Below, in pieces: positions 29,707 to 52,136 of a stretch of 52,136 nt of DNA (position 1 is the first letter of the stretch; each line of letters begins with the position of its first letter). The position numbers were made by a program, and so were the translations under genes. Location of the stretch: the NCBI GenBank assembly GCA_024277995.1, contig JAJRUD010000147.1, positions 1-52,136 on the forward strand. Direction: 5' to 3'. Under the pieces are notes generated by a model. The model was given only the letters and a program-made list of their open reading frames with translations. It did not search any database and was not told the origin of the DNA. Origin of the DNA: Chloroflexota bacterium (GTDB lineage: Bacteria > Chloroflexota > Anaerolineae > Anaerolineales > E44-bin32).

Positions 29707-29835
29707 TGCCGACCCTGCAGGTCGTGGGCCGAGGTTGGTGCAGCAGCGGTATGATTAGGGATGTGCAGGGTGCCGGCGAGAGCCAGCCCCCGGCCGCTCA
29801 CAGGAGAGCGACATTGCCCTGTGCAGCAGAGAGAC

Positions 29836-29910
29836 CTGTGACTTGAGACTTGCGACTTGTGTCTTGCGTCCTGCCTCCCGTATCTCATGTCCTGCGTCCT
29901 GCGTCTCTCT
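29836..29910. repeat. Degenerate ACTTG/TCCTGCGTC low-complexity repeat
   Basis: A 75-base run made of variants of GACTTGAG and GTCCTGC occupies part of the gap 29707-29973. It is unlike the flanking GC-rich coding DNA. I see no gene or promoter in it. Confidence 0.55.
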
Positions 29911-29973
29911 ACCCGCTGCCCTCGCAGACACGCTTGACCCCTCGTCGGGCCTGCGCATGTGCTGGAGGTGGTT

Positions 29974-30983: not shown

Positions 30984-31927
30984 AGGTGGTGGCACTGGCG
31001 GGCGGCGTGGGGGGCGCCAAATTGGTGCAGGGTCTGGCTGGCACTCTGCCGCCGGACTCGCTCAGCGTGGTGGTCAATACGGGCGACGATTTCGAGCACC
31101 TGGGCCTGCGCATCTGCCCCGACCTGGACACGGTGGTCTACACGCTGGCCGGCCTGGCCGATCCGCAGCGCGGCTGGGGCCGGGCGGATGAGAGCTGGAA
31201 TTTCCTGCAGGCCCTGGGGTCGCTGGGCGGCCCCACCTGGTTCCGCATCGGCGATCGGGACCTGGCGATGCATGTGGAGCGCACACACCGGATGCGCGCC
31301 GGCCAGCGGCTGAGCCGGGTGACGGCCGACCTGTGCCGGACGCTGGGGGTGTCCGTACGGGTGCTGCCCATGAGCGACGATCCGGTGAGCACGATGGTGC
31401 TCACCGAAGAGGGGGAATTGTCCTTCCAGGAGTACTTCGTCGCCCGGCGCTGCACGCCGCGCGTGCAGGGCTTTCGCTTCCAGGGCGCGCAGCGGGCCAG
31501 GCCAGCGCCCGGTGTGCTGCAGGCCATCGAGACCGCCGCGCTGGTCGTGTTCTGCCCCTCCAACCCCTGGGTGAGCCTGGACCCCATCCTGGCGGTCTCC
31601 GGCATGCGCCAGGCCCTGGTTTCGAAGACCGTCGTGGCCGTCTCGCCCATCGTCGGAGGGCGGGCGATCAAAGGGCCGGCGGCGAAGATGTTCGCTGAAT
31701 TGGGCGTGGAGCCCACGGCCCTGGCTGTGGCGGAACATTACAATTGTCTGTTGAAGGCGTTCGTGCTCGATCAGGAGGACCGTGACCAGGAACGGGAGAT
31801 AGCGGCCCTGGGTTTGCAGACGCTCGTCGCGCAGACGATCATGCGATCCATCGAGGACCGCCTGGCTCTGGCGCGCGCCGTCATCGAATTCGCGCAAGGA
31901 TTATTGGTGGGGGAGGTATCCGTGTGA
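30980..31927 (+). CDS. cofD: LPPG/EPPG:FO phosphotransferase
   Basis: The true start is ATG 30980, overlapping the previous stop; the open frame upstream is a shadow. The 315-residue protein begins MKVVALAGGVGGAKLVQGL, the CofD nucleotide-binding motif, and continues with VVVNTGDDFEHLGLRICPDLDTVVYTLAGL and CPSNPWVSLDPIL. It joins the activated lactyl, enolpyruvyl or glyceryl phosphate group to FO. A GTGA overlap couples it to cofC. Confidence 0.95.
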   Translation: MKVVALAGGVGGAKLVQGLAGTLPPDSLSVVVNTGDDFEHLGLRICPDLDTVVYTLAGLADPQRGWGRADESWNFLQALGSLGGPTWFRIGDRDLAMHVERTHRMRAGQRLSRVTADLCRTLGVSVRVLPMSDDPVSTMVLTEEGELSFQEYFVARRCTPRVQGFRFQGAQRARPAPGVLQAIETAALVVFCPSNPWVSLDPILAVSGMRQALVSKTVVAVSPIVGGRAIKGPAAKMFAELGVEPTALAVAEHYNCLLKAFVLDQEDRDQEREIAALGLQTLVAQTIMRSIEDRLALARAVIEFAQGLLVGEVSV

Positions 31928-32553
31928 CCATCTGGGCGATCGTGCCTGTCAAGCCCCTGAACCGTGCCAAGTCTCGTCTGGCCCCGGTACTGACGCGCGA
32001 GCAGCGCGCCAGGTTGAGCCGGCGGCTGCTCGTGAATACGCTGGACGTGCTGGCGAAGGTGCCGGCCATTGAGCACACGCTCGTCGTCAGCCGCGATTCG
32101 AGCGCGCTGGCACTGGCGCGCAAGCACGGGGCGCGCACGGTGACCGAGCGCGGCAAGCCGCGCCTGGACCGGGCGTTGATCCGGGCCACGCTCGTGGCGC
32201 AGGGATACGGGGTCTCAGCGGTGCTCGTGCTGCCGGCGGACCTGCCCCTGATCACCGCCGAGGCCATCGAGGACTTCATCGCCCACGCCAAGGAAGCCCC
32301 GATCGTGGTGCTGGCGCCCGACCATCACGGCACGGGCACCAACGCTTTGTTGTCGGCGCCTCCCGGCCTCATCGAGTATGAATTCGGCCCGGACAGTTTC
32401 CACCGCCATCTGGCGCGCGCTCAGGAAAGCGGCGTGCGCGTGGAGGTTTGCAGCTTGCCTTCAGTGGCCCTGGACCTCGACAATCCGGAGGACCTGGAGC
32501 AGTTGGGCGCAGAATGGCGGGAAGCGATTGTCAATTCAACCGAGAGGGAGTAA
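31924..32553 (+). CDS. cofC: 2-phospho-L-lactate/phosphoenolpyruvate guanylyltransferase
   Basis: The 209-residue protein starts at GTG overlapping the cofD stop. It has [20 protein letters not shown] at the N-terminus and [15 protein letters not shown] (about 100-115), the CofC pattern of the nucleotidyltransferase fold. It activates the phosphorylated C3 acid with GTP for CofD. With cofE, cofD and the nitroreductase, every late F420 step is encoded here. The FO synthase gene (fbiC or cofG/cofH) is not in the window. Confidence 0.94.
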
Positions 32554-32558
32554 GGGAT

Positions 32559-33563
<1,005 letters not shown>

Positions 33564-33572
33564 GAGGCGCTC

Positions 33573-34058
33573 TTGGAACAGCAGACCAGTCGCGTCAAAC
33601 AGCCAAACTCGCTGCACTGCTTCGTTTGTGGTGTGGAGAACAGCTATGGCCTGGGCATGGCCTTCTACGAGGTCGGCCCGGGGCAGGTGGAGGCACGCTA
33701 CACTGTGCCGGAGCGCTACCAGGGCTATCCCGGCGTGGTCCACGGCGGCATCATCGCCGCCATGCTGGACGAGGTGGTGGGCCGCGCCACCATGGTGGGC
33801 GAAAACCACCACTTCATGGTCACGGCCAAGCTCCAGGTCCACTATCGCAAGCCGGTTCCCATCGGCCAGCCACTGCGCCTGACGGGGCATGTGGTGCGAC
33901 GCAGGGGCCGGTTGGCCGTCTGCCGCGGCGAACTGTGGCTGCCCGACGGGACACTGGGCGCCGAGGCGGAGGCCACGCTGGCTGACTACCCTGGCGGGCA
34001 GGTGGATCCGGAGCAGTTGGAAGCGCTGGGTTGGAAAGTCTACCCCGACGAGGAGTGA
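33573..34058 (+). CDS. PaaI-type hotdog thioesterase
   Basis: The 161-residue protein starts at TTG behind GGAGG. YPGVVHGGIIAAMLDEVVGRA is the catalytic segment of the PaaI/YbgC-like hotdog thioesterases, and FMVTAKLQVHYRKPVPIGQPL follows. The N-terminal CFVCGVEN motif is common in this branch. It would hydrolyse an acyl-CoA thioester, with unknown substrate. It sits 10 bases after the LLM gene and 9 before the next FAD subunit. Confidence 0.85.
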   Translation: MEQQTSRVKQPNSLHCFVCGVENSYGLGMAFYEVGPGQVEARYTVPERYQGYPGVVHGGIIAAMLDEVVGRATMVGENHHFMVTAKLQVHYRKPVPIGQPLRLTGHVVRRRGRLAVCRGELWLPDGTLGAEAEATLADYPGGQVDPEQLEALGWKVYPDEE

Positions 34059-34066
34059 GGGTTTCC

Positions 34067-34810
34067 ATGTCCCCTCTGGAGTACCATCGACCGAAAAACC
34101 TGCAGGAGGCCATCGCCCTGCTGCAGGCGGGTGTGCCCCTGGCGGGCGGCACGGCGCTGGTGCCGCAGCGCCGCCGGCTGCAGGCGGTCATCGATCTCTC
34201 GCACCTGGGCCTGGACGGTTTCCAGGTCCAGGATGGGCGTGTGACAGCCGGGGCGACGCTCAAGCTGCAGGCTCTGGCAGAAGCCGGACCGGGTGTGCCG
34301 CCGGCCCTGGCGCAGGCCGTACGCCTGGAGGCGACGCGCAACCTGCGCAGCATGGTCACACTGGGCGGCGCGCTGATGGCGTGCGACGGACGCTCGCCTC
34401 TGGTCACGGCCCTGCTCGCTCTTGGCGCTCAGGCGGCGGTGCATCCGGGGGGCGGCTGGGTTGCCCTGACGGAATTGCTGGCCGGGCGCGGTGATGGGTC
34501 GCGCTGGCTGGTGACCGCCCTGCGCTGGCAGGAGCCAGTAAGGCTGGCCTACGATCAGGTGGCGCGCACTCCGGCCGACCGGCCCATCCTGTGCGCGGCC
34601 GTGGCGCGCGCTGGGGACGGCTCGCTGGGCGTGGCCCTGGGCGGCCACGGCGCGCATCCCCGGCGGATCGCGGATACAACGCCTGAAGAAGCCCCGGCGA
34701 CGGCGCGCCGGGCTTACGCACAGGCGGAGGATGAATGGGCCAGTGCGGCCTATCGCGCCGCGGTCGCCGAGATCCTGGTGCGGCGGCTGGTGGCGGAGGT
34801 GGCGGGCTGA
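34067..34810 (+). CDS. Molybdenum hydroxylase 2, short FAD-type subunit
   Basis: The start MSPLEYHRPKNLQEAIALLQ at ATG 34067 is preferred. At 247 residues it is about 40 shorter than usual. LAGGTALVPQRR and LRSMVTLGGALMAC replace the normal AGGTDL and RNxATIGGN FAD contacts, and the region between is reduced. The fold is recognisable, but FAD binding may be weakened or lost. It overlaps the fused FeS-Mo gene by one base (TGATG). Confidence 0.78.
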   Translation: MSPLEYHRPKNLQEAIALLQAGVPLAGGTALVPQRRRLQAVIDLSHLGLDGFQVQDGRVTAGATLKLQALAEAGPGVPPALAQAVRLEATRNLRSMVTLGGALMACDGRSPLVTALLALGAQAAVHPGGGWVALTELLAGRGDGSRWLVTALRWQEPVRLAYDQVARTPADRPILCAAVARAGDGSLGVALGGHGAHPRRIADTTPEEAPATARRAYAQAEDEWASAAYRAAVAEILVRRLVAEVAG

Positions 34811-37806
34811 TGATCGTGCGATTTACACTCAACGGCGTGGCGGTGGAGCTGGAAGTCCCGGCGGAGGCGACGCTGCTGGAGGTGCTGCGCGAGGAGTTCG
34901 GGCTCTTCGGTGTGAAGCGCGGCTGTGATACGGGCGAGTGCGGCGCCTGTGCCGTGTTGATCGACGGGGAACCGGTGAACTCGTGCGTGATGTTCGCCGC
35001 CCAGGCCGAGGGCAAGTCCATCACCACCATCGAGGCCGTCGGCGAGCACCCCGAACAGGGCTGGCGGCGGACTGAGGGGCTGCACGCCATCCAGCAGGCC
35101 TTCGTCGAGACGGGGGCCATTCAGTGCGGCTACTGCACCCCGGCCATGGTGCTGGCGGCGCGCGCTCTGCTGGAGAAGAACTCCGACCCCAGCGAGGCTG
35201 AGGTGCGCCAGGCCCTATCCGGCGTGCTCTGCCGCTGCACGGGTTATCTCAAGCCTGTGCAGGCGGTGCTGCGCGCGGCAGCCTTCATGCGCGGCGAGAC
35301 CGTCGCGCCCGTCTCGGTCATCCCGCCGGCCGGGCCGGACCTGCTCGCGTCGCCTGATGAGGGCCAGCCCCAGGAAGGGCAGCCGGCGTGGGGCGACCGG
35401 GAGACGCTCACGCGGACGGGGGTCCTGCCGCGCATCCGACTGGCGCCGCAGGCCGAGGCCCGCCGCTCGGTGGGGCAGCCGGAGCTCAAGGTGGACGCGG
35501 TGAAACTGGTGCAGGGCAAACCGGCCTTCACCGCCGATCTGGAGATGCGCGGCATGCTGGTGGCCAAGGTGCTGCACAGCCCGCTGGCCCATGCCCGCAT
35601 CAAGCGCATCGACGCCTCGAAGGCGCGCGCCCTGCCGGGTGTGGCGGCGGTGCTCACCTGGCAGGACATCCCGCGCGTGCCCTATTCCACCGCCGGCCAA
35701 TCGGATCCCATCCCGGGACCGCTGGACAGTTTTTCGCTGGACAACAAAGTGCGCTTCGTCGGGGATCGGGTGGCCTTCGTGGCGGCGGAGACGGAGGCCA
35801 TCGCCGAGCAGGCGCTGGAGCTGATCGAAGTGGAGTACGAGCCCCTGCCGGCCGTCCTCGATTTCGAGCAGGCCCTGCAGGAGGGCGCGCCGGTCATCCA
35901 CGACGAGCCCGATTACGTCGGCTTCGCCGAGTCTGATCCCGGCCGCAACCTTGCGGCCAGGATCCGCATCGACATCGGCGACGTGGAACGGGGCTTCCAG
36001 GAGGCCGACCTGATCATCGAGGGCACATACGAGGTCCCCAAAGTGCAGCAGGCCCACATCGAGCCCCACGTCGTGGTCACCTATTGGGACGAGGACGACC
36101 GGCTGGTGATCCGCACCAGCACGCAAGTGCCCTTCCACGTGCGGCGGCAGCTGGCACCCGTGCTGGGCCTGCCCGCCAAGCGCATCCGGGTCATCAAGCC
36201 GCGCATCGGCGGCGGCTTCGGCGGCAAGCAGGAGATCCTCATCGAGGACGTGGCCGCGCACCTGACCATCGCCACCGGGCGACCGGTGCGCTTCGAATAC
36301 ACGCGCGCCGAGGAGTTCTCCGCCTCCCGCTCGCGCCACCCGATGCGCATCCGCATGCGGACCGGTGTGAAGAAGGACGGCACCATCACCGCTAACGAGA
36401 TGTACGCCCTGAGCGACACGGGGGCCTACGGCGGCCACGCGCTGACGGTGACCGGCAACACGGGCCACAAGGCGATGGCGCTCTACGTGGGCGACGGTCC
36501 CTACCGCGAGAAGCCCAACATCCGCTTCCACGCCGACATCGTCTACTCCAACCGCCCGCCGTCTGGCGCCTACCGCGGCTACGGCGTGCCGCAAGGGTTC
36601 TGGGCGGTGGAGCGCCACATGGAGCGCGTCGCGCGTGAGCTGGGGTTGGACCCGCTGGAGTTCCGACTGAAGAACGCCCTGCGCGCCGGCGAGCTGCACC
36701 CCTTCAGCACGGCCTGGTCCGAGGGGCGCGAGCCGCGGCCGGAGGTGATCAACACCTGCGCCCTGGAGGACTGCGTGCATCACGGCGCGGCGGCCATCGG
36801 CTGGCACGCGAAGTACGGCGACCCCGCGTGGCATCAGGTGCCGGGCAAACCGCACCTGCGGCGGGGCATCGGCGTGGCCATGGTGATGCAGGGGACGGCC
36901 ATCCCTTATCTGGACATGGGTGGGGCGAGCATCAAGATCAACGAAGACGGCTCCTTCAACCTGCTGGTGGGCGCCACGGATCTGGGCACAGGTTCGGACA
37001 CCGTCCTGGCCCAGCAGGCGGCCGAGGTGCTGGGCGTGCCGCTGGAGGACATCATCGTCTACTCCTCCGACACCGATTTCACCCCCTTCGACAAGGGCGC
37101 CTACGCCTCCAGCACCACGTACATTTCGGGCGCGGCCGTGGTGCACGCCGCCCGCCAGGTGGCCGAGCGCCTGCGGGAGCGCGCGGCGCGCATGCTCGCC
37201 GGGCAGGGCGGTGCGCTGCAGACCGAGCAGATCCGGCTGGCGGACGGGCGCGCCTGGGCGCCGGACGGCCGCTCGGTGACCCTGGCCGAGATAGCCCTGA
37301 ACGCCCTGCACCATGAAGACCAGGAGCAGATCATGGGCGTGGCCTCTTACGTGTCGCCCCTCGCGCCGCCGCCCTTCGCCGCCCAGTTCGCCGAGGTGAC
37401 GGTGGACGTGGAGACGGGGCAGGTGCGAGTGGACAAGCTGGTGATGGCCGTGGATTCGGGCGTGATCGTCAACCCCGTCACGGCCTCGGGCCAGATCGAA
37501 GGTGGCATGACTCAGGCTCTGGGTTACGCCGTGTGCGAGGAGATGACCTATGACGGGCAGGGGCGACCGCGGGAGACCAGTTTCCGCGATTACCACATCT
37601 TCGCCGCGCACGAGATGCCCGAGCTGCAGACCATCTTCGTCGAGACCGTGGAACCCTCCCATCCCTTCGGGGTCAAGGCGGTGGCCGAGATCCCCATGGA
37701 CGGTGTGGCGCCGGCCGTGGCCAACGCCGTGCTGGACGCCTGCGGCGCGAGCATCGACTCGGCGCCGGTGACGCCGGAGAAGGTGTGGAGGGCGCTTCAG
37801 GGATAG
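34810..37806 (+). CDS. Molybdenum hydroxylase 2, fused [2Fe-2S] and molybdopterin subunits
   Basis: The 998-residue fusion begins at the overlapping ATG 34810. Residues about 1-160 form the FeS part with GCDTGECGAC, SC, QCGYC and CRC. A proline-rich linker (about 165-225) leads to the Mo domain, which has GGGFGGKQE, GAYRGYG and a C-terminal GVKAVAEIP holding the catalytic Glu. This FeS-Mo fusion is the architecture of E. coli XdhD and related selenium-linked hydroxylases. A purine or similar N-heterocycle is the expected substrate. The fusion implies fixed 1:1 stoichiometry of electron relay and active site. Confidence 0.9.
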   Translation: MIVRFTLNGVAVELEVPAEATLLEVLREEFGLFGVKRGCDTGECGACAVLIDGEPVNSCVMFAAQAEGKSITTIEAVGEHPEQGWRRTEGLHAIQQAFVETGAIQCGYCTPAMVLAARALLEKNSDPSEAEVRQALSGVLCRCTGYLKPVQAVLRAAAFMRGETVAPVSVIPPAGPDLLASPDEGQPQEGQPAWGDRETLTRTGVLPRIRLAPQAEARRSVGQPELKVDAVKLVQGKPAFTADLEMRGMLVAKVLHSPLAHARIKRIDASKARALPGVAAVLTWQDIPRVPYSTAGQSDPIPGPLDSFSLDNKVRFVGDRVAFVAAETEAIAEQALELIEVEYEPLPAVLDFEQALQEGAPVIHDEPDYVGFAESDPGRNLAARIRIDIGDVERGFQEADLIIEGTYEVPKVQQAHIEPHVVVTYWDEDDRLVIRTSTQVPFHVRRQLAPVLGLPAKRIRVIKPRIGGGFGGKQEILIEDVAAHLTIATGRPVRFEYTRAEEFSASRSRHPMRIRMRTGVKKDGTITANEMYALSDTGAYGGHALTVTGNTGHKAMALYVGDGPYREKPNIRFHADIVYSNRPPSGAYRGYGVPQGFWAVERHMERVARELGLDPLEFRLKNALRAGELHPFSTAWSEGREPRPEVINTCALEDCVHHGAAAIGWHAKYGDPAWHQVPGKPHLRRGIGVAMVMQGTAIPYLDMGGASIKINEDGSFNLLVGATDLGTGSDTVLAQQAAEVLGVPLEDIIVYSSDTDFTPFDKGAYASSTTYISGAAVVHAARQVAERLRERAARMLAGQGGALQTEQIRLADGRAWAPDGRSVTLAEIALNALHHEDQEQIMGVASYVSPLAPPPFAAQFAEVTVDVETGQVRVDKLVMAVDSGVIVNPVTASGQIEGGMTQALGYAVCEEMTYDGQGRPRETSFRDYHIFAAHEMPELQTIFVETVEPSHPFGVKAVAEIPMDGVAPAVANAVLDACGASIDSAPVTPEKVWRALQG

Positions 37807-37863: not shown

Positions 37864-39207
37864 ATGACTGAAACCTACGTCATCGGCCACGTGAATCCCG
37901 ATACCGACGCCATAGCCTCGGCCATGGGCTATGCCTGGTTGCTGCGCGAGCGCGACGGCACACAGGCCGTGGCCGCGCGCGCCGGGGCGGTGAACCAGCA
38001 GACGGCCTGGGTGCTGGACGTGCTGGGGCTGGAGCCGCCGGAGCTGCTGGCGGACGCCTCGCCGCGCGTGGGCGCGGTGGCGCGCCGCTTCGACAGCGTG
38101 CGCCCCGAGAGCCCGCTGCGCGAGGCGTGGTTCATCGCCAACCGCACGGGCAGCGTGGCCCCCGTCGTCGAGGCCGATGGCCGGCCCTATGGATTGATTA
38201 CCGGGCTGAGCCTGTTCCTCTTCTTGAGCGAGCTGGTGGGCACCCACGCCGACAGCGAGCAAATACGCCTGGCCGAGATCTTCGACTTGCCATGCCGGGA
38301 TGCAGCCGACACCGGCGTGCCGCGCTTCCAGGCCGGCTCGCGCATCCGCGATGCCCTGCCGCGCATCCTGCGCGAGGAGCGCAACGACTTCTGGGTGGTG
38401 GACGAAGGGGGGCGCTATCTCGGCGTTTGCCGCCAGCCGGATTTGCTCAACCCGCCGCGTCTGAAGCTGGTGCTGGTGGACCACAACGAGGGCCATCAGG
38501 CTATCGGATCCCTGGAAGAGGCGGATCTGCTGGAGGTGCTCGATCACCATCGCCTGGGCAACCCGCCCACCCGGCTGCCCATCCGCTTCCGTGTAGACCC
38601 CGTGGGAAGCACGAGCACGCTGGTTTTCGAGCGCATCGAGGCCGCCGGCCTGAGCGCCCCGCCTGAGCTGGCCGGGCTGCTGCTGGCGGGCTTGCTCTCG
38701 GACACTTTGCTGCTCACCTCGCCCACCACCACCGAACGCGACCGACAGGCCGCGGCGCGTCTGGGCCGCTGGGCTTTCGTCGGCGGCGCGCCGCTGGAAG
38801 GGGAAGATCTGGAGTCCTTCGGGCGGCAGTTGCTGCAGGTCGGGGCGGGCCTGCGCACGCGTGATCCCGGATCGGTGGTGACGGGAGACCTGAAGATCTA
38901 TGAGGTGAGCGGAATGCGCTTCGGCATCGCCCAGGTGGAGGTGACGGACCTGCTGGATCTCCCGCAGCATGTGCAGGCGCTGACCGATGCGCTCGGTCGC
39001 TTGCGTGAGACGCGTGGGCTGAATTTCGCGCTGTTGATGATCACGGACATTGTGGGCGGCTCGAGCCGCATACTGATGAGCGGCGCGCCGCCTGTGCTGC
39101 AGGAGTTGCCTTACCTGCGCCTGCCGGACGGCACATTGGAAGCGAAGGGCGTAGTCTCGCGCAAGAAACAGTTGCTGCCGGTGGTGCTGGCCTTGTTGGA
39201 GGGGTAG
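37864..39207 (+). CDS. CBS-domain family II (DHH) inorganic pyrophosphatase-like protein
   Basis: The 447-residue protein starts with YVIGHVNPDTDAIASAMGYA, the DHH-family metal motif. A pair of CBS domains is inserted at about residues 75-195 (SPLREAWFIANRTGSVAPVV and IRDALPRILREERNDFWVV). VLVDHNE and VLDHHRLGN complete the metal site, and a DHHA2 domain ends the protein. Such enzymes hydrolyse pyrophosphate with manganese or cobalt and are controlled by adenine nucleotides through the CBS pair. The gene is directly followed by xdhC. Removing the pyrophosphate made during cofactor cytidylylation is a plausible reason for the linkage. Confidence 0.85.
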   Translation: MTETYVIGHVNPDTDAIASAMGYAWLLRERDGTQAVAARAGAVNQQTAWVLDVLGLEPPELLADASPRVGAVARRFDSVRPESPLREAWFIANRTGSVAPVVEADGRPYGLITGLSLFLFLSELVGTHADSEQIRLAEIFDLPCRDAADTGVPRFQAGSRIRDALPRILREERNDFWVVDEGGRYLGVCRQPDLLNPPRLKLVLVDHNEGHQAIGSLEEADLLEVLDHHRLGNPPTRLPIRFRVDPVGSTSTLVFERIEAAGLSAPPELAGLLLAGLLSDTLLLTSPTTTERDRQAAARLGRWAFVGGAPLEGEDLESFGRQLLQVGAGLRTRDPGSVVTGDLKIYEVSGMRFGIAQVEVTDLLDLPQHVQALTDALGRLRETRGLNFALLMITDIVGGSSRILMSGAPPVLQELPYLRLPDGTLEAKGVVSRKKQLLPVVLALLEG

Positions 39208-40026
39208 GTGGATTTCTACGCCCGGGCCTACGAATTGGAGCAGCGGAGCGAGCCCTTCGCCGTGGCCACCGTGGTGCGCGCCCGGGGCTCGGTGCCGCGT
39301 CGGCCGGGGAGCAAGATGATCGTGCGCGCTGACGGCGCCGTCGAGGGCACCATCGGCGGCGGTGAGATGGAGAGCCGCGTGGTGCAGCAGGCCCTGCAGG
39401 CGCTTCAGGATGGGGAGAGCCACGTGCTGCAGTATGCCTTCAGCGACCCGGCTCGCGGGGATCCGGGCGTGTGCGGCGGGGAGATGGAGGTCTTCGTGGA
39501 GCCGGTACTACCGAAGCCGACGGTGGTTGCGGTGGGTGCAGGGCACGTCGGCCGCGCCGTCGCGCATCTGGCCCGCTGGTCGGGCTTCCGCGTCGTGGTG
39601 GCGGACGATCGGCCGGGGTTCGCCACGCCGGAGGCGGTGCCCGAGGCCGATGAACACCTGCAGTGCCCACCGGCGGAACTGCCGGAGCGCCTGCGCATCG
39701 ACGCGCAGACGTACCTGGTGCTCACCACGCGCGGCCTGCCCGTGGATCTGGAAGGTCTGCCGCCGCTGCTGGAGACCCCGGCGGCCTACATCGGTGTGAT
39801 CGGATCCCGCCGTCGCTGGGAGACCACCGCAAAAGGGCTGCTGGCGTCAGGTGTGCCTGAGGAAAGCCTGGCGCGCGTGGTTTCACCGATGGGGCTCGAA
39901 CTCAACGCCGAGACCCCACAAGAGATCGCATTGAGCATCCTGGCGGAAATCATCATGTTGCGGCGCGGGGGCACGGGCGAAGCGATGGCCCATCGCGTTA
40001 TTGGACGCCGCCATGAAGGAGGCTAG
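39208..40026 (+). CDS. xdhC: XdhC/CoxI-family molybdenum cofactor insertion factor
   Basis: The 272-residue protein begins at GTG immediately after the previous stop. AVATVVRARGSVPRRPGSKMIV and GTIGGGEMESRVV form the XdhC N-terminal domain. VVAVGAGHVGRAVAHLARWSGFRVVVADDR is its C-terminal Rossmann region, and GVIGSRRRWE is also conserved. XdhC binds molybdopterin, supports its sulfuration and delivers it to xanthine-dehydrogenase-type enzymes. It immediately precedes the third hydroxylase and may serve all three. Confidence 0.92.
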   Translation: MDFYARAYELEQRSEPFAVATVVRARGSVPRRPGSKMIVRADGAVEGTIGGGEMESRVVQQALQALQDGESHVLQYAFSDPARGDPGVCGGEMEVFVEPVLPKPTVVAVGAGHVGRAVAHLARWSGFRVVVADDRPGFATPEAVPEADEHLQCPPAELPERLRIDAQTYLVLTTRGLPVDLEGLPPLLETPAAYIGVIGSRRRWETTAKGLLASGVPEESLARVVSPMGLELNAETPQEIALSILAEIIMLRRGGTGEAMAHRVIGRRHEGG

Positions 40027-41460
40027 ATGACTATGTGGCAAAAGTACTACACGCCGACATCCCTGCAGGAAGCGGTCGCGTTGCTTGCGGAGCACAAGGG
40101 CTCGGCGCGCATTATCGCCGGTGGGACCGACCTGGTGTTGGAGCTGGAACGCGGTCAGCGTCCGCAGGTGAAGGCGCTCATCGACGTCAGCCGCATCCCC
40201 GGTCTGGACCACATCCGGGTCGATGACCGGGGATGGGTTCATCTGGGGCCGCTGGTGACCCACAACCATTGTGCCGGATCAGAGCTGCTGGTCGAGCGTG
40301 CCTTCACCCTGGCGCGCGCCTGCTGGTCGGTGGGCGCGCCGCAGATTCGCAACCGCGGCACCGTCGCCGGCAACCTGATCACCGCCTCGCCCGCCAACGA
40401 CACCATCCCGCCGCTCATAGCCCTGGGCGCGCAGGTGACGCTGAAGTCGGCGGAAGGGGAACGCGTGGTGCCCCTGAGTGAGTTCTACACGGGCGTGCGC
40501 AAGACGGTCATGCGCGAGGATGAACTCATGGCCGACATCGCCTTCCCCCTGCCGCCTGAAGGGGCGCGCAGCACGTTCTACAAACTGGCGCTGCGCCGTG
40601 CCCAGGCCATCTCCGTGGTCAACGTGGCGGTGGTCCTGGAGATGGAGGGGGAGGTCGTCGCCCGGGCGCAATTGACCTATGGCTCCGTGGCGCCCACCAT
40701 CGTGCATGCCGCGCAGGCCGAGGCGTACCTGCAGGGGAAGCAACTCACTCCTGAGGTCATCGCCCGGGCGGGGGAGATGGCCGTCGCGGCCGCGCAGCCC
40801 ATCGACGACGTGCGCGGCTCGGCCGCCTACCGCCGCGAGATGGTCCGGGTGTGCACGCAGCGCGCCCTGCGCGACCTGGCGCAGGGGAAGGAGCGCGAGG
40901 GCTACCCCGCGCGGCCGGTGATGTTGTGGGGCCCCGGCGAGTACCACGTTTCCCGGGAATTGTCGGCGCGGCTGGAGCACGGGCCGGGCATACCCATCGA
41001 GACCACCGTCAACGGGAAGCGTTACGCGGCGGAAACGGGGCAGGATAAGACGTTGTTGCGCTTCCTGCGCGAGGAGTTGGGACTGACCGGGACGAAGGAG
41101 GGTTGCGCCGAGGGCGAGTGCGGTGCCTGCACGGTGATCCTGGATGGCATGGCGGTGATGGCCTGTCTGGTTCCGGCGCCGCGAGCCCACGGCGCACGGA
41201 TCGTCACCGTTGAGGGGCTGGCGAAGGATGGCAAGCTCCACCCTCTGCAAGAAAGCTTTGTCGAACAGGGCGCCGTTCAATGTGGCTACTGTACCCCGGG
41301 TTTCCTGATCTCCGGTGTACAGCTCCTGGCGGAGAACCCACGGCCCGGGCTGTGGGAGATCCAGCAGGCGATAACCGGGAATCTCTGCCGCTGCACGGGC
41401 TACTATAAGATCATCTCGGCCATCGAGCGCGCCGCTGAGCTGGCACAAGGGGCGCACTGA
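40027..41460 (+). CDS. Molybdenum hydroxylase 3, fused FAD and [2Fe-2S] subunits
   Basis: The 477 residues contain an intact FAD subunit (about 1-300; IIAGGTDLVLELERG and GAPQIRNRGTVAGNLITA) joined by a short linker to a 2Fe-2S subunit (about 318-470; GCAEGECGAC, AC, QCGYC, CRC). This order differs from the FeS-Mo fusion of hydroxylase 2. The catalytic Mo subunit is encoded 2.2 kb downstream, beyond two unrelated genes. The start codon follows the xdhC stop directly. Confidence 0.9.
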   Translation: MTMWQKYYTPTSLQEAVALLAEHKGSARIIAGGTDLVLELERGQRPQVKALIDVSRIPGLDHIRVDDRGWVHLGPLVTHNHCAGSELLVERAFTLARACWSVGAPQIRNRGTVAGNLITASPANDTIPPLIALGAQVTLKSAEGERVVPLSEFYTGVRKTVMREDELMADIAFPLPPEGARSTFYKLALRRAQAISVVNVAVVLEMEGEVVARAQLTYGSVAPTIVHAAQAEAYLQGKQLTPEVIARAGEMAVAAAQPIDDVRGSAAYRREMVRVCTQRALRDLAQGKEREGYPARPVMLWGPGEYHVSRELSARLEHGPGIPIETTVNGKRYAAETGQDKTLLRFLREELGLTGTKEGCAEGECGACTVILDGMAVMACLVPAPRAHGARIVTVEGLAKDGKLHPLQESFVEQGAVQCGYCTPGFLISGVQLLAENPRPGLWEIQQAITGNLCRCTGYYKIISAIERAAELAQGAH

Positions 41461-41513: not shown

Positions 41514-41885
41514 ATGGGAAGAGATTCATGGCGTTTCAGGCAGTCTGACGAAGAGCGCGAGAAACGCAAGCGCATGAACCCGGTCTGGCGCGGGGTTGGT
41601 TGTTTCACGGTCGTGCTCTTGACGCTGACCGGGTACCTCTTCGCCGGCTGGTTCCTGATGGCCAATCTGACCAACCACTGGATCTACATGCCGCCGGAGG
41701 TGTTGCGGCCGTCCTTCGCTCCATGGCTGCCGGCGGGCGTCCTGGTGCAGATCGTGGTCGCCTTCATCTTCATGGTGATGAGCTACGGTGCCCTCAGTCT
41801 GTTCTACGCCATTGCCTTCCCCATCCGGCCTGGCGAGACCGACGTGCCGCCGCTGAAGCGCCCTCGCCGGCGACGACGACGGTGA
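41514..41885 (+). CDS. Small two-helix membrane protein
   Basis: The 123-residue protein has a charged N-terminus, two hydrophobic helices (about residues 28-52 and 73-100) and a very basic end of six arginines. It has no signal peptide or known motif. An AGGGCAATC region precedes the ATG. It lies between the FAD-FeS fusion and the 585-residue unknown protein and is probably co-expressed. A role in membrane attachment of neighbouring enzymes would be speculative. Confidence 0.7.
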   Translation: MGRDSWRFRQSDEEREKRKRMNPVWRGVGCFTVVLLTLTGYLFAGWFLMANLTNHWIYMPPEVLRPSFAPWLPAGVLVQIVVAFIFMVMSYGALSLFYAIAFPIRPGETDVPPLKRPRRRRRR

Positions 41886-41892
41886 GGTGATC

Positions 41893-43650
41893 ATGGATCG
41901 AACCGTACCACGCACGGGCTCGGAAGAGATCGAACTCTACATCCGGACCTACTACTCGCTGCTGCGATCAACGACGGATGTTCAGATCCGGACGCTGGAG
42001 GAAGTGCACGCCAACATGGGTTCGGCGCTGCACCTGCACGCGCGCGGCATCATGCCCGATATGTCCGCTTTCATCTACAGCGGCCTGCGCCTCCCGGCCT
42101 GTGTCGTGCAGGTGGAGCGCGTTATCCTGGGTCAGGGACAGGAAGTCTTTCAGCAGGGCGGCTTTCCCGAGATCAAGAGCTGGCAGCCGGTGTTCGCCAG
42201 AGCCCGCCGCCGGCGCGGCCTTTTCGACGGTACGGACACCCTGGCCCTGTACATCGGCAGCCGCTCCGATATTGACGACGTCCTGCCCCTGCTCACGGCC
42301 TTTCAGATCGAATGGAACAAGCTGCACGTTCTGCTCCAGGGAGAGCAGGTGCGCGCCTTTCTGCGTGAGCCGCTCGACACGGATGAGGGCTTGGCGGTGT
42401 TGGCGCGGGGCATCGGGGTGGAAGCCGAGGACCTGATGCGCCTGCGCAGCGTGTGGGGTGTGTCTTTCTGGCCCATGATGCGGGCCATCGCCGAGCGCAC
42501 CAAGCGTTTCAGGGTGCGCCTGTTGCGCGGCTCGCTCAACGACTACCGGCGGGCGACGCAGTTGTGGTGGGAACACGTGGAAGCCGCTGAGCCCACCCTG
42601 CTCCATCGCCCGGTCTATTTCGTCTCCAGCAACACCCACAGCCTGGCCAATCTCTATACCGGGTTCGCCCTGCGCCACCAGGAGGAGCTGATCCGTTTCC
42701 TGGAGCGCCCCGAGCACGCGGACTTGCTGGCCGAGTGGCAGCAGATCGAAGCCCGCGACGTCCCTTCGAACCGCGAGAACTTCCTTTATTACGTGCTGAA
42801 GAAGTATCTCTCCTCGCCGCACGGGGCCGAACTGGCGGAAAAGCGCAGGCAAGAAGAGCTCGCCTGCGGCGTGCAGCGCGTCGTCAGCGAAGAGAGCTTC
42901 GACGTAGAAACCCAGGTCATCGAGCTGGCCAAGGTGCATCCCGAGTGGGCGGATCGGCGCCTGCGGCGGCTGGAGTTGGAGAGGCTGCGCGAGAGCGACG
43001 CGTTGGTGGTGAACATCGACTACCCGCTGGGCATGGCCGCCTATTTGATCCTCTCCTACGTGGCCACCCGCGTGGGCGAGACGCGCGGCGTGTACATCCT
43101 TGGCAAGGCCGCCACGCTGAACGGCGTCATCGGCGACGTGATGATCCCCTCCGTGGTCCACGACGAGCAGTCCCAGAATACCTACCTCTTTGAGAATTGC
43201 TTCAGCGCGGCGGACGTGAGCAGCGATTTGATCTACGGCACGGTGCTGGACAATCAGAAAGCCGTCAGCGTGCGCGGAACCTTCCTGCAGACGCCGCGCT
43301 ACATGGACGTCTTCTACCGCGAGGGCTACACCGACATCGAGATGGAAGCCGGCCCGTACCTCTCGGCGATCTACGAGATGCACCGACCCAAGCGTCATCC
43401 CCAGGACGAGATCGTCAACCTCTATGGCCTGCCCTTCGACCTGGGGATCCTGCATTACGCTTCCGACACCCCGATGAGCAAAGGAAAGAATCTGGGCGCC
43501 GGAACCCTGTCTTATTTCGGCATGGACCCGACCTACGCCACCAGCCTGGCTATCTGGCGCCGTATCATCAACCTGGAACTCGACCGATTGAAGGGCGAAC
43601 CGGCGCCGCCCGAAGCGCGATCGCCGGGCAGCCGTGTCCGTGAGGAGTGA
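41893..43650 (+). CDS. 585-residue protein of unknown function inside the hydroxylase 3 operon
   Basis: I do not recognise a named family with confidence. The N-terminal 330 residues look all-helical (IELYIRTYYSLLRSTTDVQIRTLEEVHANMGSALH and others). From about residue 365 the sequence resembles the nucleoside phosphorylase pattern: YILGKAATLNGVIGDVMIPSVVHDE, then YGTVLDNQKAVSVRGTFLQ, and YTDIEMEAGPYLSAIYEM, similar to the E-x-ME segment that binds ribose. A phosphorylase-like or purine-binding function would fit the position between the FAD-FeS and Mo subunits of hydroxylase 3. ATG 41893 (GAGG five bases upstream) is preferred over GTG 41887. Confidence 0.7.
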   Translation: MDRTVPRTGSEEIELYIRTYYSLLRSTTDVQIRTLEEVHANMGSALHLHARGIMPDMSAFIYSGLRLPACVVQVERVILGQGQEVFQQGGFPEIKSWQPVFARARRRRGLFDGTDTLALYIGSRSDIDDVLPLLTAFQIEWNKLHVLLQGEQVRAFLREPLDTDEGLAVLARGIGVEAEDLMRLRSVWGVSFWPMMRAIAERTKRFRVRLLRGSLNDYRRATQLWWEHVEAAEPTLLHRPVYFVSSNTHSLANLYTGFALRHQEELIRFLERPEHADLLAEWQQIEARDVPSNRENFLYYVLKKYLSSPHGAELAEKRRQEELACGVQRVVSEESFDVETQVIELAKVHPEWADRRLRRLELERLRESDALVVNIDYPLGMAAYLILSYVATRVGETRGVYILGKAATLNGVIGDVMIPSVVHDEQSQNTYLFENCFSAADVSSDLIYGTVLDNQKAVSVRGTFLQTPRYMDVFYREGYTDIEMEAGPYLSAIYEMHRPKRHPQDEIVNLYGLPFDLGILHYASDTPMSKGKNLGAGTLSYFGMDPTYATSLAIWRRIINLELDRLKGEPAPPEARSPGSRVREE

Positions 43651-43653
43651 GTG

Positions 43654-45882
43654 ATGGCCGTGATTGGAAAATCTATTCGCCGCATCGATGCCCTGGGCAA
43701 GGTGACAGGGGAAACGCTGTTCCCCGGCGACATCAACATGCCCGATCAGGCTCATATGAAGATCTTCTTCGCCGGGCGGCCTGACGCGATCATCCGTAGG
43801 CTGGACATCAGCGCCGCCGAGGCCGTGCCCGGCGTGCTGGCTGTCTTCACGGCCAAGGACGTCCCGGTCAACGAGTACGGCCTGATCATGCCCGATCAGC
43901 CGGTGCTTTGCGGGCCGGGCTCCACCAAGCCCCACGCCGATCGCGTGCGCTTTGTTGGTGATCAAGTGGCGCTGGTGGTGGCCGAGACGGAGGCCATCGC
44001 CGCCGAAGCGCTGAAGCGCATCGTCGTCGATTACCAGGACCTGCCGGTGGTGACGGATCCGCTGCAGGCAATGCAGCCCGATGCGCCGCTGTTGCATCCC
44101 GAAAAGGGGAGCAACGTCTTCGTGCATTACCGCATCCGCAAGGGGGACGTGGAGCAGGGCTTCGAGGCGGCCGACGTGATCGTGGAGAGCGAGTACCGCA
44201 CGCCGTCACAGGAGCACGTCTTCCTGCAGCCCGAGGCGGGCGTGGCCTACATCGACGAGCAGGGGCGCGTCACCGTCCAGGTGGCCGGGCAGTGGACCCA
44301 CGAGGATCGCCAGCAGATCGCCCACGCGCTGGGCCTGCCGGAGGAGCAGATCCGCGTCATCTACCCGGCCATCGGCGGCGCCTTCGGCGGACGCGAGGAT
44401 ATGTCGGTGCAGATCGTGCTCGCGCTCGCCGCGTGGCGCCTGCACCAGCGCGGCATCAAGCGCCCGGTGAAGATCGTCTGGAGCCGTGAGGAGTCCATCA
44501 TCGGCCATCACAAGCGCCATCCCTTCGTCATCCGTGCCCGGTGGGGGGCGCGGCGGGATGGGAAAGTGGTGGCTGCCGAGATGGAAGTGATCCAGGACGG
44601 CGGCGCATACGCCTACACCTCGACCAAGGTGCTGGGCAACGCCACGTTGATGTGCACCGGGCCGTACGAGATCCCCCACGTAAAGGTGGATGCCTACGGC
44701 GTCTACACCAACCACATCCCCGGCGGCGCTTTCCGCGGCTTCGGCGGCCCGCAGGGCGCCTTCGCCGCCGAAGGCCAGATGAACAAGCTGGCTGAGGCGT
44801 TGGGGATGGACTCGGTGGAGATCCGCGCCCGCAACGTGTTGACTGAAGGAGCGCTGCTCTCCGTGGGCACGCCCCTTCCCGAGGGCGTCAGCATCGGCCA
44901 GGTGGTCGAAAGGGCGGCCGAGCAGGCCGGATGGTCCCACACGGCGAAGGGCTGGCGCCGTCCGTCCGCGGAGGCCCTGGGTGAGCCGCCCGAGCCGCAC
45001 CTGAAGCGGGGGGTCGGCTTCGCCTGCGCCTTCAAGAACGTGGGCTTCTCCTTCGGCTTCCCCGAGCAGTCCTGGGCCACCGTGGAGCTGCACGGCGGCG
45101 CCGAGATCGAAGAGGTGGTGGTGCACCACGCCGGCGCCGATTGCGGCCAGGGCGCGCACACGGTCATGGCGCAGATGGCGGCGGAGGCCGTCGGCGTCCC
45201 GCTGGAGAAAGTGCGCCTGGTGGTCTCCGACACGGCCCACACCGACAATTCCGGTTCCACCTCCGCCTCACGCATGACCTTCATGGCCGGCAACGCCATC
45301 CGCGGCGCCGCCAGCCTTGCGCTGAAGAAATGGGAGGCGGAGGAACGGCCGGCCATCGCCACCTTCCAGTATCGCCCGCCGCCCACCACGCCCTATGACC
45401 CCGAAACGGGCAAGTCCGAGCCCAACTTCGCCTACGGCTACGTGGCGCAGGCCGTGACGGTGGAGGTGGATACAGAGACGGGCCACGTGCGCCTGCTGCG
45501 GGTGGTCTGCGCCGACGACGTCGGCAAGGCCATCAACCCGCAGCAGGTGCAGGGGCAGATCGAGGGCGCCGTAGTGCAGGCCGCCGGCTACGTCACCATG
45601 GAAGATTTCCGCCAGCAGGGGGGCTACGTGCAGACCAACCAGCTCTCGACCTACCTCATCCCGACGGTGCTGGACATCCCCGAACGAGTGGAGTCGGTCA
45701 TCGTCGAGCATCCCGACCCTCTCGGACCCTGGGGGGCGCGCGGCATGGGTGAGATGCCCTTCCTGCCGGTGGCGCCGGCGGTGATCGCTGCCGTGCACGA
45801 CGCGCTCGGGATCTGGTTCGACGACTTCCCGTTGACCCCCGAGCGGGTGATACGCGGCCTGAAGGAGGCCGGCCTCCGATGA
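43654..45882 (+). CDS. Molybdenum hydroxylase 3, molybdopterin-binding subunit
   Basis: The 742-residue catalytic subunit starts at ATG 43654 behind GAGGAGT. It keeps [10 protein letters not shown] (cofactor loop, Ala for the usual third Gly), [11 protein letters not shown], and [13 protein letters not shown] with the catalytic Glu. After [17 protein letters not shown] it lacks roughly 40 residues present in hydroxylase 1, jumping to the [10 protein letters not shown] segment. It overlaps yqeB by four bases (ATGA), which ties it to the selenium-linked accessory genes. It is the best candidate for a selenium-dependent hydroxylase here, but substrate and selenium are inferred. Confidence 0.88.
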
Positions 45883-46700
45883 GCGCACACCCCCCGGTGG
45901 TGATCCTCCGGGGTGGAGGTGACCTGGCCACGGGCTGCGCGCTGCGGCTGCATCGGGCCGGGCTCGCGGTGGTGGTGCTGGAAACCGCCGAACCGCTGGC
46001 GGTGCGCCGGCTGGTATCCCTGGCCGAGGCTGTCTATCAGGGCGAAATCGAGATCGAAGGCATGCGCGGCCGCCGCGTCGCAGACGTGGCGGCCGCGCAT
46101 CGCGCCCTGGAGCAGGGCCTGGTCCCGGTGCTGGTGGACCCGCAGGCCGAGAGCCGCAAGTCCCTGCGCCCGCTGGCGCTGGTGGACGGGCGCATGCGCA
46201 AGGAGCGGCCCGAATTGGGGTTGGAGGCCGCGCCGCTGGTGGTGGGCCTGGGGCCGGGGTTCGTCGCCGGCGAGAACTGCCACGCCGTGGTGGAGACCAA
46301 CCGCGGCCACCATCTGGGGCGGGTCTACTGGCAGGGGGGTGCCGAGCCCGACACCGGCGTGCCCGAGGCCGTGCAGGGCTATGACGTGGACCGCGTGCTG
46401 CGGGCGCCGGCCGATGGTCATATCGAAGCCCAGGTGCCTCTCGGGTCGTTGGTGCGCCAGGGCGAGATCATCGCCACGGTGGGCGGCGCGCCACTGCGTG
46501 CGCCCTTCGACGGAGCCTTGCGCGGCCTGATCCACGACGGGATCCACGTGCAGGCGGGCGTGAAGATCGGCGATCTCGACCCGCGCTGCGAGACCGCCTA
46601 CTGCCGCGAGGTCTCCGACAAAGCCCTGGCCGTGGGCGGAGGCGTGCTGGAGGCCGTGCTTTCCAGGCCCGAGATCCGACGGGCGCTGGCCATGAGCTGA
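45879..46700 (+). CDS. yqeB: YqeB/EF2563-family selenium-dependent molybdenum hydroxylase accessory protein
   Basis: The 273-residue protein begins [38 protein letters not shown], the Rossmann-like start of the YqeB/EF2563 family. [27 protein letters not shown] near residue 120 is its second hallmark, followed by a lipoyl-like C-terminal region. The family occurs almost only with selenium-dependent molybdenum hydroxylases and is thought to act in maturing the selenium-containing cofactor. It overlaps the Mo subunit and is two bases from the yqeC-mocA fusion. Confidence 0.92.
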
Positions 46701-46702
46701 AG

Positions 46703-48043
46703 ATGCATCTGGCAAAGGCGTTGCGCGTCCTGCCCGGCCGGAGTGTGGCCTTCGTGGGGGCGGGTGGCAAGACCACCGCCATGGCCCGCCTGGCCGGTGA
46801 GCTTTCCCCTCTGGGGCCCGTGATCATGACCACCACGACGCGCATGGCGCGCACGCAGGCCTCTCTGGCGCAGGTGCATCGCGTCGTCCACAGCCCCGCA
46901 GACCTGGCGGGGCTGTCCCAAGAGGCGGGCGAAAAGCGGACGTTGCTCGTCACCGCCCCGGCCGTGCCGGGTGAGCCTAAATGGCAGGGGCTGGACGGGG
47001 CGATGATGGCCGCTTTGCGCCGCGCGGCCGATGAGCTGGGTGCTACCCTGTTGGTGGAAGCCGACGGCGCGCGCGGCCGATCGCTGAAGGCCCCCGCCGA
47101 GCACGAACCCGTCATCCCGCCCTTCGTCGACCTGGTGGTGCCCGTGGCGGCGCTGGACGCCCTGGGGCAGCCGCTGCAGGCAGGCTGCGCCCACCGGCCG
47201 GAGCTCTTGGCGCGGCTGCTTGGCGTTCCCCTCGGGACGCGACTCGAGCCGGAGCACTTCGCCGCCGCGCTGGGACATGTCGAGGGGGGCCTGAAGGGGG
47301 TCCCGCCCAAAGCGGAGGTGCGGATGCTGCTCAACAAGGTCGACGCCGCCCGGCTGGATGCCGGGCGAGCCGTGGCGGCCGGGCTGCTGGGGCGGGCGGA
47401 GCGGGTGCAGGCCGCGGTGCTGGCTTCCGTCGCGAGGGAGGATCCCGTGCGGGAGGTATGGGGGCGCGTGGCGGGCGTGGTGCTGGCGGCGGGCGGATCG
47501 AGCCGCATGGGAAGGCCCAAGCAGTTGTTGACCTGGCGCGGGCGGCCCCTGGTGTGGCATGCCGTGCAGGCGGCGCTCGATGGTGGGCTGGAGCCGGTGG
47601 TGGTGGTCCTGGGTGCGCAGGCGCAGGCGGTGCGCCGGGCGCTGCGTGGTGAGCAGGTGGTCTTCGTGGAGAACCAGGGCTGGTCGCGGGGGCAGAGCAC
47701 CTCCGTGCGCCTGGGCCTGCAGGCCGTGCAGCAGGGAGCGGAGGGCGTGGTCTTCCTGCTGGCGGACATGCCTCTCGTAGACCAGGCGCTGGTCGCCGGG
47801 CTGGTCGGCGAGCACCGCCGCACGCTGGCGCCGCTGGTGGCGCCGCAGGTGCGGGAGCGCTGGGGCAACCCGGTGCTCTTCGACCGGGTGACCTTCACCG
47901 CGCTGCGCGAGCTGGAGGGCGATCGCGGCGGGCGGGCGCTTTTCGAGGACTTCCCCGTACATGGATATCCATGGGACGAGCGCGCGACGGTCGACGTCGA
48001 CACCGAGGCGGACCTGGCGCGCCTGGAGGAGGATTCATGGTAG
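46703..48043 (+). CDS. Fusion of YqeC (selenium hydroxylase accessory) and MocA-like cytidylyltransferase
   Basis: Residues about 1-250 are YqeC: a P-loop VAFVGAGGKTTAMARLAGEL, VIMTTTTRM and LLVEADGARGRSLKAP. From about 255 a MobA/MocA nucleotidyltransferase begins with GVVLAAGGSSRMGRPKQLLTWRG and has FLLADMPLVD as the metal site. The second half should attach CMP (or GMP) to molybdopterin, and the first half is an ATP-binding partner associated with selenium cofactor assembly. The fusion argues that the two steps act on the same intermediate. A separate MocA-like protein overlaps its end by seven bases. Confidence 0.9.
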   Translation: MHLAKALRVLPGRSVAFVGAGGKTTAMARLAGELSPLGPVIMTTTTRMARTQASLAQVHRVVHSPADLAGLSQEAGEKRTLLVTAPAVPGEPKWQGLDGAMMAALRRAADELGATLLVEADGARGRSLKAPAEHEPVIPPFVDLVVPVAALDALGQPLQAGCAHRPELLARLLGVPLGTRLEPEHFAAALGHVEGGLKGVPPKAEVRMLLNKVDAARLDAGRAVAAGLLGRAERVQAAVLASVAREDPVREVWGRVAGVVLAAGGSSRMGRPKQLLTWRGRPLVWHAVQAALDGGLEPVVVVLGAQAQAVRRALRGEQVVFVENQGWSRGQSTSVRLGLQAVQQGAEGVVFLLADMPLVDQALVAGLVGEHRRTLAPLVAPQVRERWGNPVLFDRVTFTALRELEGDRGGRALFEDFPVHGYPWDERATVDVDTEADLARLEEDSW

Positions 48044-48654
48044 GGGCCGTGATCCTGGCCGCCGGAGCGTCGCGGCGCATGGGTCGTCCCAAGATGCCGC
48101 TCCCCTGGCGGGAGGGGCGCACCATCCTGCAGCAGGTGATCCACATTGCGGAGTCCGCCGGCGCGGACCCCATCCTGGTGGTGACGGGGAGCGATCGGGA
48201 GGTAGTGGAGGCGCTGCTGCATGGGACCCGCGCCCGCCCGGTGTTCAACCCGGCTCATCGGCAGGGGGGCATGCTGTCCTCCATCCAGGCCGGGCTGCGC
48301 GCCCTGGAGCGCACCCCGGTGCAGGCGGCGTTCTTGATGCCGGGGGACCTGCCCAAAGTGCGACCGGCCACCGTGCGTACGCTGCTGGACGCGTGGGCTG
48401 AAGAGCCTGCGCGCCTGGTAGTGCCCAGCTTCGCGCACAGAGCGGGGCACCCCGTGGTCATCCCCAGGGAACGATGGCCGGAGATCCTGGCCCTGGGCGC
48501 GGGCGAAACGCTGCGCGACTTCTTCCGACGCCATCGGGGAGAGATCCGATACGTGGTCGTCGAGGACGAGGGGGTGTTGCAGGATCTGGACACACCTGAG
48601 GCGTATCGACGGGCGCTGCAGGAGAAGCCGCAGGCGGATGGGGGCATCACGTAG
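48037..48654 (+). CDS. Second MocA-like molybdopterin nucleotidyltransferase
   Basis: ATG 48037 lies inside the end of the preceding gene. The 205-residue protein has AVILAAGASRRMGRPKMPLPWREG, the nucleotide-binding loop, and FLMPGDLPKVRP as the metal-binding site. It differs clearly from the MocA half of the fusion, so the operon encodes two nucleotidyltransferases. They may use different nucleotides or different cofactor forms, or one may serve the selenium branch. It is the last gene of the hydroxylase block. Confidence 0.9.
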   Translation: MVGAVILAAGASRRMGRPKMPLPWREGRTILQQVIHIAESAGADPILVVTGSDREVVEALLHGTRARPVFNPAHRQGGMLSSIQAGLRALERTPVQAAFLMPGDLPKVRPATVRTLLDAWAEEPARLVVPSFAHRAGHPVVIPRERWPEILALGAGETLRDFFRRHRGEIRYVVVEDEGVLQDLDTPEAYRRALQEKPQADGGIT

Positions 48655-51990: not shown

Positions 51991-51996
51991 TAAACC

Positions 51997-52136
51997 GACC
52001 CTGCTGTGTTCGTGATGTTGCAACGCCGTTTTGAGCCAACACGTTAAGTACGGGGTCCGATCTCGCAGGGGGGCCGCGTTAGGCCACGGCCAAGGCGAAA
52101 CCCCTCGGTAGGACCCCACCTGCGAAAGCAGGTTCA
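51997..52136 (+). ncRNA. ssrS: 6S RNA, 5' and central part (3' end outside window)
   Basis: No protein is encoded. The text CCCTGCTGTGTTCGTGATGT, then GCCGTTTTGAGCC and AAGTACGGGGTCC, resembles the 5' arm of bacterial 6S RNA as I remember it (compare GAUGUUCGC...UGAGCC in E. coli). GGGGTCC (52051 onward) pairs with GGACCCC further down. A hairpin ACCTGC-GAAA-GCAGGT then continues into TTCA, matching the ACCUUG...CAAGGGUUCA segment before the 3' arm. 6S RNA mimics an open promoter and sequesters sigma-70 RNA polymerase. The assignment rests on remembered pattern and fold. Confidence 0.65.

Follow-up and report, generated by a model that had tools for sequence, protein, structure and literature searches.

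YqeB, YqeC and MocA-like genes beside a molybdenum hydroxylase in an Anaerolineae genome: a probable selenium-cofactor maturation set

Does a member of the Anaerolineae place selenium on its molybdenum (Mo) hydroxylases? The question is raised by a gene run for a Mo hydroxylase and the proteins YqeB, YqeC and MocA on a contig of a Chloroflexota bacterium (GenBank assembly GCA_024277995.1, JAJRUD010000147.1). The window analysed here is this whole contig of 52,136 nucleotides (nt), C110 of a metagenome-assembled genome (MAG) of 3.36 Mb in 272 contigs that is 86% complete with 4.4% contamination. A first-pass annotation had described YqeB, YqeC and two MocA-like proteins following the Mo subunit with overlaps. 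The genes and their tight packing stand, but YqeC and the first MocA-like domain are encoded by one fused gene, and only one separate MocA-like gene follows. We consider it probable, at roughly 0.68, that this set matures the selenium cofactor of Mo hydroxylases, in a form found in the Chloroflexota (Anaerolineae). Overall, the observation behind the annotation was confirmed and its interpretation is partly supported. The run is composed as follows, flavin adenine dinucleotide being abbreviated FAD and the molybdenum cofactor Moco:

37864-39207, + strand, CBS-containing DHH/DHHA2 manganese-type inorganic pyrophosphatase (PF01368, PF02833, PF00571; pyrophosphatase models up to 319 bits, under cut-off)
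39208-40026, + strand, XdhC-family Moco chaperone (NF045664 238 bits, TIGR02964 111 bits, both under cut-off)
40027-41460, + strand, fused FAD and [2Fe-2S] subunit of hydroxylase 3, FAD domain first (PF00941, PF03450, PF00111, PF01799)
41514-41885, + strand, small membrane-type open reading frame (ORF) without family, orf123
41887-43650, + strand, DUF6909 protein inside the hydroxylase operon (PF21850 740 bits)
43651-45882, + strand, Mo-cofactor-binding subunit of hydroxylase 3, Mo3 (alternative start ATG 43654; TIGR03196 593 bits, MoCoBD_1, MoCoBD_2)
45879-46700, + strand, YqeB, by family name a selenium-dependent Mo cofactor maturation protein (TIGR03309 327.8 bits, cut-off 220)
46703-48043, + strand, YqeC-MocA fusion of 446 aa (TIGR03172 155.2 bits, cut-off 73; PF12804; TIGR03310 132 bits)
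48037-48654, + strand, second MocA-like nucleotidyltransferase (ORF listed from 47971; NF045665 172 bits; TIGR03310 154 bits, cut-off 186 not reached; PF12804)

The scores of both the YqeB and the YqeC model lie far beyond chance, and YqeB is present as a single copy in the whole MAG. Its gene start overlaps the end of the Mo3 gene by 4 nt, the fusion gene follows after a gap of 2 nt, and the likely start of the second MocA-like gene, ATG 48037 preceded by GGAGGA, gives an overlap of about 7 nt. These four genes are thus tightly packed (overlaps of 4 and 7 nt, gaps of 0-2 nt), and the run reaches further upstream to include XdhC, the fused FAD and [2Fe-2S] subunit, orf123 and DUF6909. Within the fusion protein, YqeC with the P-loop GAGGKTT occupies residues 15-218 and a MobA/MocA-like nucleoside triphosphate transferase with a LAAG motif residues 257-438; this first MocA-like domain is well over the PF12804 (MobA-like) cut-off and under the TIGR03310 equivalog cut-off of 186. 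XdhC is conserved within the operon of relatives, as is the catalytic-Glu motif GxRGMxE of Mo3. Homologues of orf123 occupy the equivalent place in loci L082 and L083, and DUF6909 does so in L083, L095 and L110. The FAD-then-[2Fe-2S] order of the fused subunit is the reverse of that in the usual XdhA small subunit (TIGR02963).

The predicted structure of YqeB is confident (mean predicted local distance difference test, pLDDT, 92.5) and consists of a Rossmann-like N-terminal part and a barrel-sandwich-like domain. A comparison of the model with the PDB returned local matches only and no whole-fold match. The local matches (BesA, pyruvate carboxylase, CphZ) probably represent barrel-sandwich (biotinyl/lipoyl-like) domains, in line with weak sequence hits at residues about 167-220. 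As a source of mechanism we rejected the structure, since local fold matches give none, and the DUF6909 model was discarded as too poor (pLDDT 56.6).

The selenium-cofactor trait of the selenium-dependent molybdenum hydroxylases (SDMHs) was described by Haft & Self in 2008 (PMC2276186) with YqeB, YqeC, MocA/YgfJ-like, SsnA and XDH-family subunits, which are clustered here as well, and with SelD, which is present in the genome. In contrast to that description, SelD is here neither orphan nor in the cluster, the host belongs to the Anaerolineae, YqeC is fused to MocA, and the run adds a second MocA, the CBS-pyrophosphatase and DUF6909. Earlier surveys located the trait chiefly in Bacillota and Enterobacterales (PMC5322559); for Chloroflexota with SDMHs our literature search brought up only this paper, which names the phylum in another context. 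That a maturation marker set occurs outside these two groups, as had been proposed, is borne out by the YqeB/YqeC/MocA/SsnA set in Anaerolineae. The host lineage and the YqeC-MocA architecture are new; the maturation system itself was already known and is biochemically unproven.

In published work the trait is marked by SelD together with YqeB and YqeC (PMC9312934; PMC5029168), and this signature is complete in the MAG. As had been noted, selD, selA and selB have no match on contig C110. selD is encoded elsewhere in the MAG (358 bits, cut-off 125), so that its complete absence, which the annotation would have counted against itself, did not occur. The annotation's expectation of selD without selA and selB failed in this genome, which also carries selA (571 bits), selB (364 bits) and tRNA-Sec (71 bits, gathering threshold 47). 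An orphan selD lacks selA, selB and selU alike; here only selU was not found, in a MAG that is 86% complete. Moreover, the selD gene has an in-frame TGA at the conserved CxxU position (SCAGU). Because of this UGA and the presence of selA, selB and tRNA-Sec, SelD is already explained by selenocysteine. A hairpin resembling a selenocysteine insertion sequence 3' of the UGA scored no better than shuffled sequences, and we make no claim for it.

These findings weigh against a role for selenium in the set, as selD alone proves nothing for the cofactor trait, and they give room to a different explanation, namely that this branch of Mo hydroxylases uses YqeB and YqeC as general maturation factors (for cofactor handling or sulfuration), that selenium is not needed and that SelD serves selenocysteine only. 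Several further points tell in the same direction. Two genomes of about 99% completeness (G114 and G154, 1.0-1.4 Mb) retain yqeB, yqeC, XdhC and a MocA-like gene (yqeB-yqeC-xdhC runs at 7981-11144 of G114:C52, locus L189, and at 4039-7037 of G154:C24, locus L190), and selD was not found in them at E<=1e-30, which tells against a strict link of YqeB/YqeC to selenium. Furthermore, no Mo subunit of the window reaches the curated cut-off of a model named as selenium-dependent (TIGR03311 667, 498 and 471 against 830 bits; TIGR03313 713 against 1102 bits). Escherichia coli has yqeB and yqeC, yet "likely does not make SDMHs" and is not known to have a selenium hydroxylase, and in Clostridioides difficile deletion of yqeC alone had no obvious phenotype (PMC11448449). 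In the same study, however, a yqeB deletion mutant resembled selD mutants in its behaviour on xanthine and uric acid, which speaks against selenium-independent factors. In the Coriobacteria and Clostridia loci L114, L116, L125, L142, L145 and L148, selD also lies less than 10 kb from yqeB.

The best natural test of the general-factor explanation is the complete, single-contig 2.95 Mb genome G176, which belongs to the same order as the window's host and has yqeB, yqeC and xdhC. Its selD divergently adjoins yqeC-yqeB-xdhC and encodes a Cys-type SelD (FCAGCAAKL), whereas the sampled relatives G104, G216 and G168 have UGA at this site (SSCAGUASKL). We detected no selA match, no selU and no selB at E<=1e-60 (four of the eight selB candidates scored) in G176, and its selD is therefore left without another known use. 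The simplest reading, judged from selA, selB, selU and the Cys-type SelD, is that selenocysteine was lost in this lineage while SelD was retained for the YqeB/YqeC pathway. The orphan selD pattern does exist, then, in G176, a relative within the order, which resembles the orphan-selD organisms Enterococcus faecalis and Haloarcula marismortui (PMC2276186) in having selD beside yqeB/yqeC with selA, selB and selU undetected, unlike the window's own genome. G264 (92% complete) has the same gene pattern and is less secure. In G019, selD is missing while selA and selB are present; this is therefore likely a gap. Taken together, we regard general maturation factors without selenium as unlikely and continue with the selenium-cofactor reading.

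How widespread and how old is the set in the phylum? In a sample of 301 Chloroflexota genomes, 55 have YqeB over cut-off, 76 YqeC, 240 SelD and 234 SelB. YqeC is present in 52 of the 55 YqeB genomes (Fisher p 8e-36, not phylogeny-corrected). SelD likewise occurs in 52 of the 55, compared with 240 of 301 overall (Fisher p 9e-4, not phylogeny-corrected). We count both co-occurrences in favour of the selenium-cofactor reading. SelD is common in the phylum, however, so that its co-occurrence with YqeB is weakly informative, a point on the side of general factors. In addition, 24 genomes, mainly of family f22, carry YqeC without YqeB over cut-off, and YqeC alone is therefore no marker of the trait.

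Among named records, the YqeB sequences closest to that of the window come from Chloroflexi KW1-S05_108 (61%) and Anaerolineales E44_bin32 (59%). In the YqeB tree the window protein groups with these two (support 95/93), inside nine Chloroflexota rows that are mostly Anaerolineae (98/95), which puts the host in the Anaerolineae. The order LLM, FeS/Mo2, pyrophosphatase, XdhC, FAD/FeS, Mo3, YqeB, YqeC/MocA, MocA is retained in several Anaerolineae loci, with some members missing, and the YqeC-MocA fusion is frequent among them. The YqeB/YqeC set is thus native to Anaerolineae. Longilinea arvoryzae, a cultured member of the Anaerolineaceae, has yqeB next to a MocA gene (L115). A YqeB frame that also matches MocA occurs in the Bacillota loci L121, L152 and L153 and may represent a further way of joining these functions. 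A different fusion was seen in G168, where L168 277-2526 (G168:C1) joins a NifS-type cysteine desulfurase to a second SelD (749 aa), this genome having a UGA-type SelD as well; G200 has a long SelD frame similar to this NifS-SelD frame.

Since the signature is spread over several contigs of a fragmented MAG with some contamination, the contig could in principle be foreign or chimaeric, so that the window genes and selD come from different cells. We consider this scarcely credible: the G+C content of the window (67.5%) agrees with that of the contigs carrying selD, selA, selB and tRNA-Sec (65-69%), the window YqeB groups with Anaerolineae, and genomes of the same order, several of them at least 97% complete, have yqeB, yqeC and selD together.

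MocA forms molybdopterin cytosine dinucleotide and releases pyrophosphate (PPi), XdhC-type chaperones hold Moco during terminal-ligand exchange, and selenophosphate is the product of SelD. A scheme for the Anaerolineae set can be proposed on this basis. SelD, encoded outside the window contig, would supply selenophosphate, and the MocA domains would turn the molybdopterin cofactor into its cytosine dinucleotide form. The neighbouring pyrophosphatase would clear the PPi released by MocA; this CBS-regulated enzyme might pull these reactions. The cofactor would be bound by XdhC and YqeB, and YqeB, possibly aided by the P-loop protein YqeC, would set selenium as terminal Mo ligand, from selenophosphate or a derivative. 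The selenium-bearing cofactor would then be inserted into the adjacent hydroxylase (40027-41460 and 43651-45882) and probably also into hydroxylases 1 and 2 of the window. Together with SsnA, an enzyme of the hydantoinase type and an F420-type oxidoreductase, the hydroxylases may supply a purine/uric-acid pathway. Of this explanation, the sequence shows the gene families, their order, the fusion, the conservation and that the genome encodes SelD; the chemistry of each step, the hydroxylase that bears selenium and the substrate are what we infer.

Further genes of the window, upstream of the run, are:

8087-9871, adenine deaminase
19205-20590, - strand, 8-oxoguanine deaminase (NF006055 670 bits, cut-off 532)
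20783-22204, + strand, dihydropyrimidinase/hydantoinase, HyuA-like (TIGR02033 529 bits, cut-off 393 passed)
22650-26535, + strand, hydroxylase 1 (FAD subunit 22650-23666; [2Fe-2S] subunit 23737-24216, PF01799; Mo subunit 24262-26535, TIGR03311 667 bits, cut-off 830 not reached, 3hrd_A 361 bits)
26851-28212, + strand, SsnA amidohydrolase (TIGR03314 501 bits, cut-off 455.5 passed)
28209-32553, + strand, F420 genes npdG, cofE, FbiB C-terminal-like nitroreductase, cofD and cofC (TIGR01915, TIGR01916, TIGR01819 and TIGR03552 pass cut-offs; TIGR03553 163 bits, under cut-off)
32448-33563, + strand, luciferase-family F420-type oxidoreductase, candidate yanthine reductase (TIGR03555/NF002619 168-175 bits, under cut-offs)
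34031-34810, + strand, FAD subunit of hydroxylase 2 (PF00941 68 bits; TIGR03312 64 bits, under cut-off 241.5)
34735-37806, + strand, fused [2Fe-2S] and Mo subunit of hydroxylase 2 (TIGR03313 713 bits, under cut-off 1102)

Among solved structures, Mo subunits 1 and 3 best match Eubacterium barkeri nicotinate dehydrogenase (3HRD), which has been characterised as a selenium-dependent Mo hydroxylase; in contrast to that enzyme, the window Mo subunit is not split. For Mo3, its score (3hrd_A, 307.6 bits) is no better than that of the selenium-free 4-hydroxybenzoyl-CoA reductase (1rm6_A, 307.4 bits). Because selenium-dependent and selenium-free relatives score alike, the nearest structure was discarded as a criterion of selenium dependence. 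The resemblance of hydroxylase 2 to the Se_sel_red models TIGR03312 and TIGR03313 would suit a system for the reduction or detoxification of selenium oxyanions without any selenium-containing enzyme, in keeping with the interpretation of E. coli ygfKMN as a "selenate reductase". But both scores are far under their cut-offs, no YgfK was found among the window ORFs scanned, and Haft and Self weighed this idea but did not favour it (PMC2276186). E. coli YgfK was moreover assigned to yanthine reduction in 2025 (PMC12507026). An oxyanion-reducing system therefore seems very improbable to us, and maturation of a selenium cofactor is still the reading we prefer.

Could the hydroxylases act in uric acid breakdown? 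SsnA, correctly placed in the same region by the first-pass annotation, lies 17 kb upstream of the YqeB/YqeC/MocA genes and co-occurs in the window with a HyuA-type hydantoinase, as in the reductive uric acid pathway. With the E. coli yqeBC/ygfJ/ssnA uricolytic cluster (PMC12507026) the window shares SsnA, the hydantoinase, carbamate kinase, a carbamoyltransferase-like gene (of the OTC family) and XDH homologues. Unlike that cluster, it has an F420-type oxidoreductase and F420 genes and no YgfK was found; its YgeW and YgeX equivalents fail their models. The YgeW model TIGR03316 reached 188 against 500 bits in the window, and the diaminopropionate ammonia-lyase model 66 against 276 bits for 9947-11209, 12345-13820 not being among its matches. 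The downstream steps of uric acid breakdown are therefore uncertain. The same source reports that Chloroflexota SsnA neighbourhoods carry an F420-type oxidoreductase in YgfK's place and suggests F420-dependent reduction of yanthine; its passages searched make no link between this variant and selenium. The predicted F420 synthesis genes and luciferase-family oxidoreductase of the window appear to match this proposed variant. The oxidoreductase is unusually conserved, with 82-89% identity among Anaerolineae relatives compared with about 35-75% for most neighbour genes. The 8-oxoguanine and adenine deaminases are predicted to be further purine salvage or degradation genes.

A wider idea, which we put forward tentatively and hold to be rather doubtful, is that the selenium-cofactor trait is old and mostly vertically kept in Anaerolineae, where it would serve a breakdown of uric acid linked to F420. 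On this view the fixed fusion of YqeC with MocA would place the action of YqeC on the cytidylated Mo cofactor, with selenium added at or just after formation of the cytosine dinucleotide. The genetics of labile-selenium placement on Mo hydroxylases rests mostly on clostridia, enterococci and enterobacteria. The Chloroflexota-wide set with its fusion, G176 and the two selD-less genomes with yqeB/yqeC provide comparative material on whether YqeB and YqeC need selenium, and the set hints at a need for selenium in uncultured, possibly purine-degrading bacteria. At its far end, downstream of aspS, the window contains a 6S RNA (51995-52136, RF00013 47.9 bits, just over the gathering threshold) that is cut by the window end.

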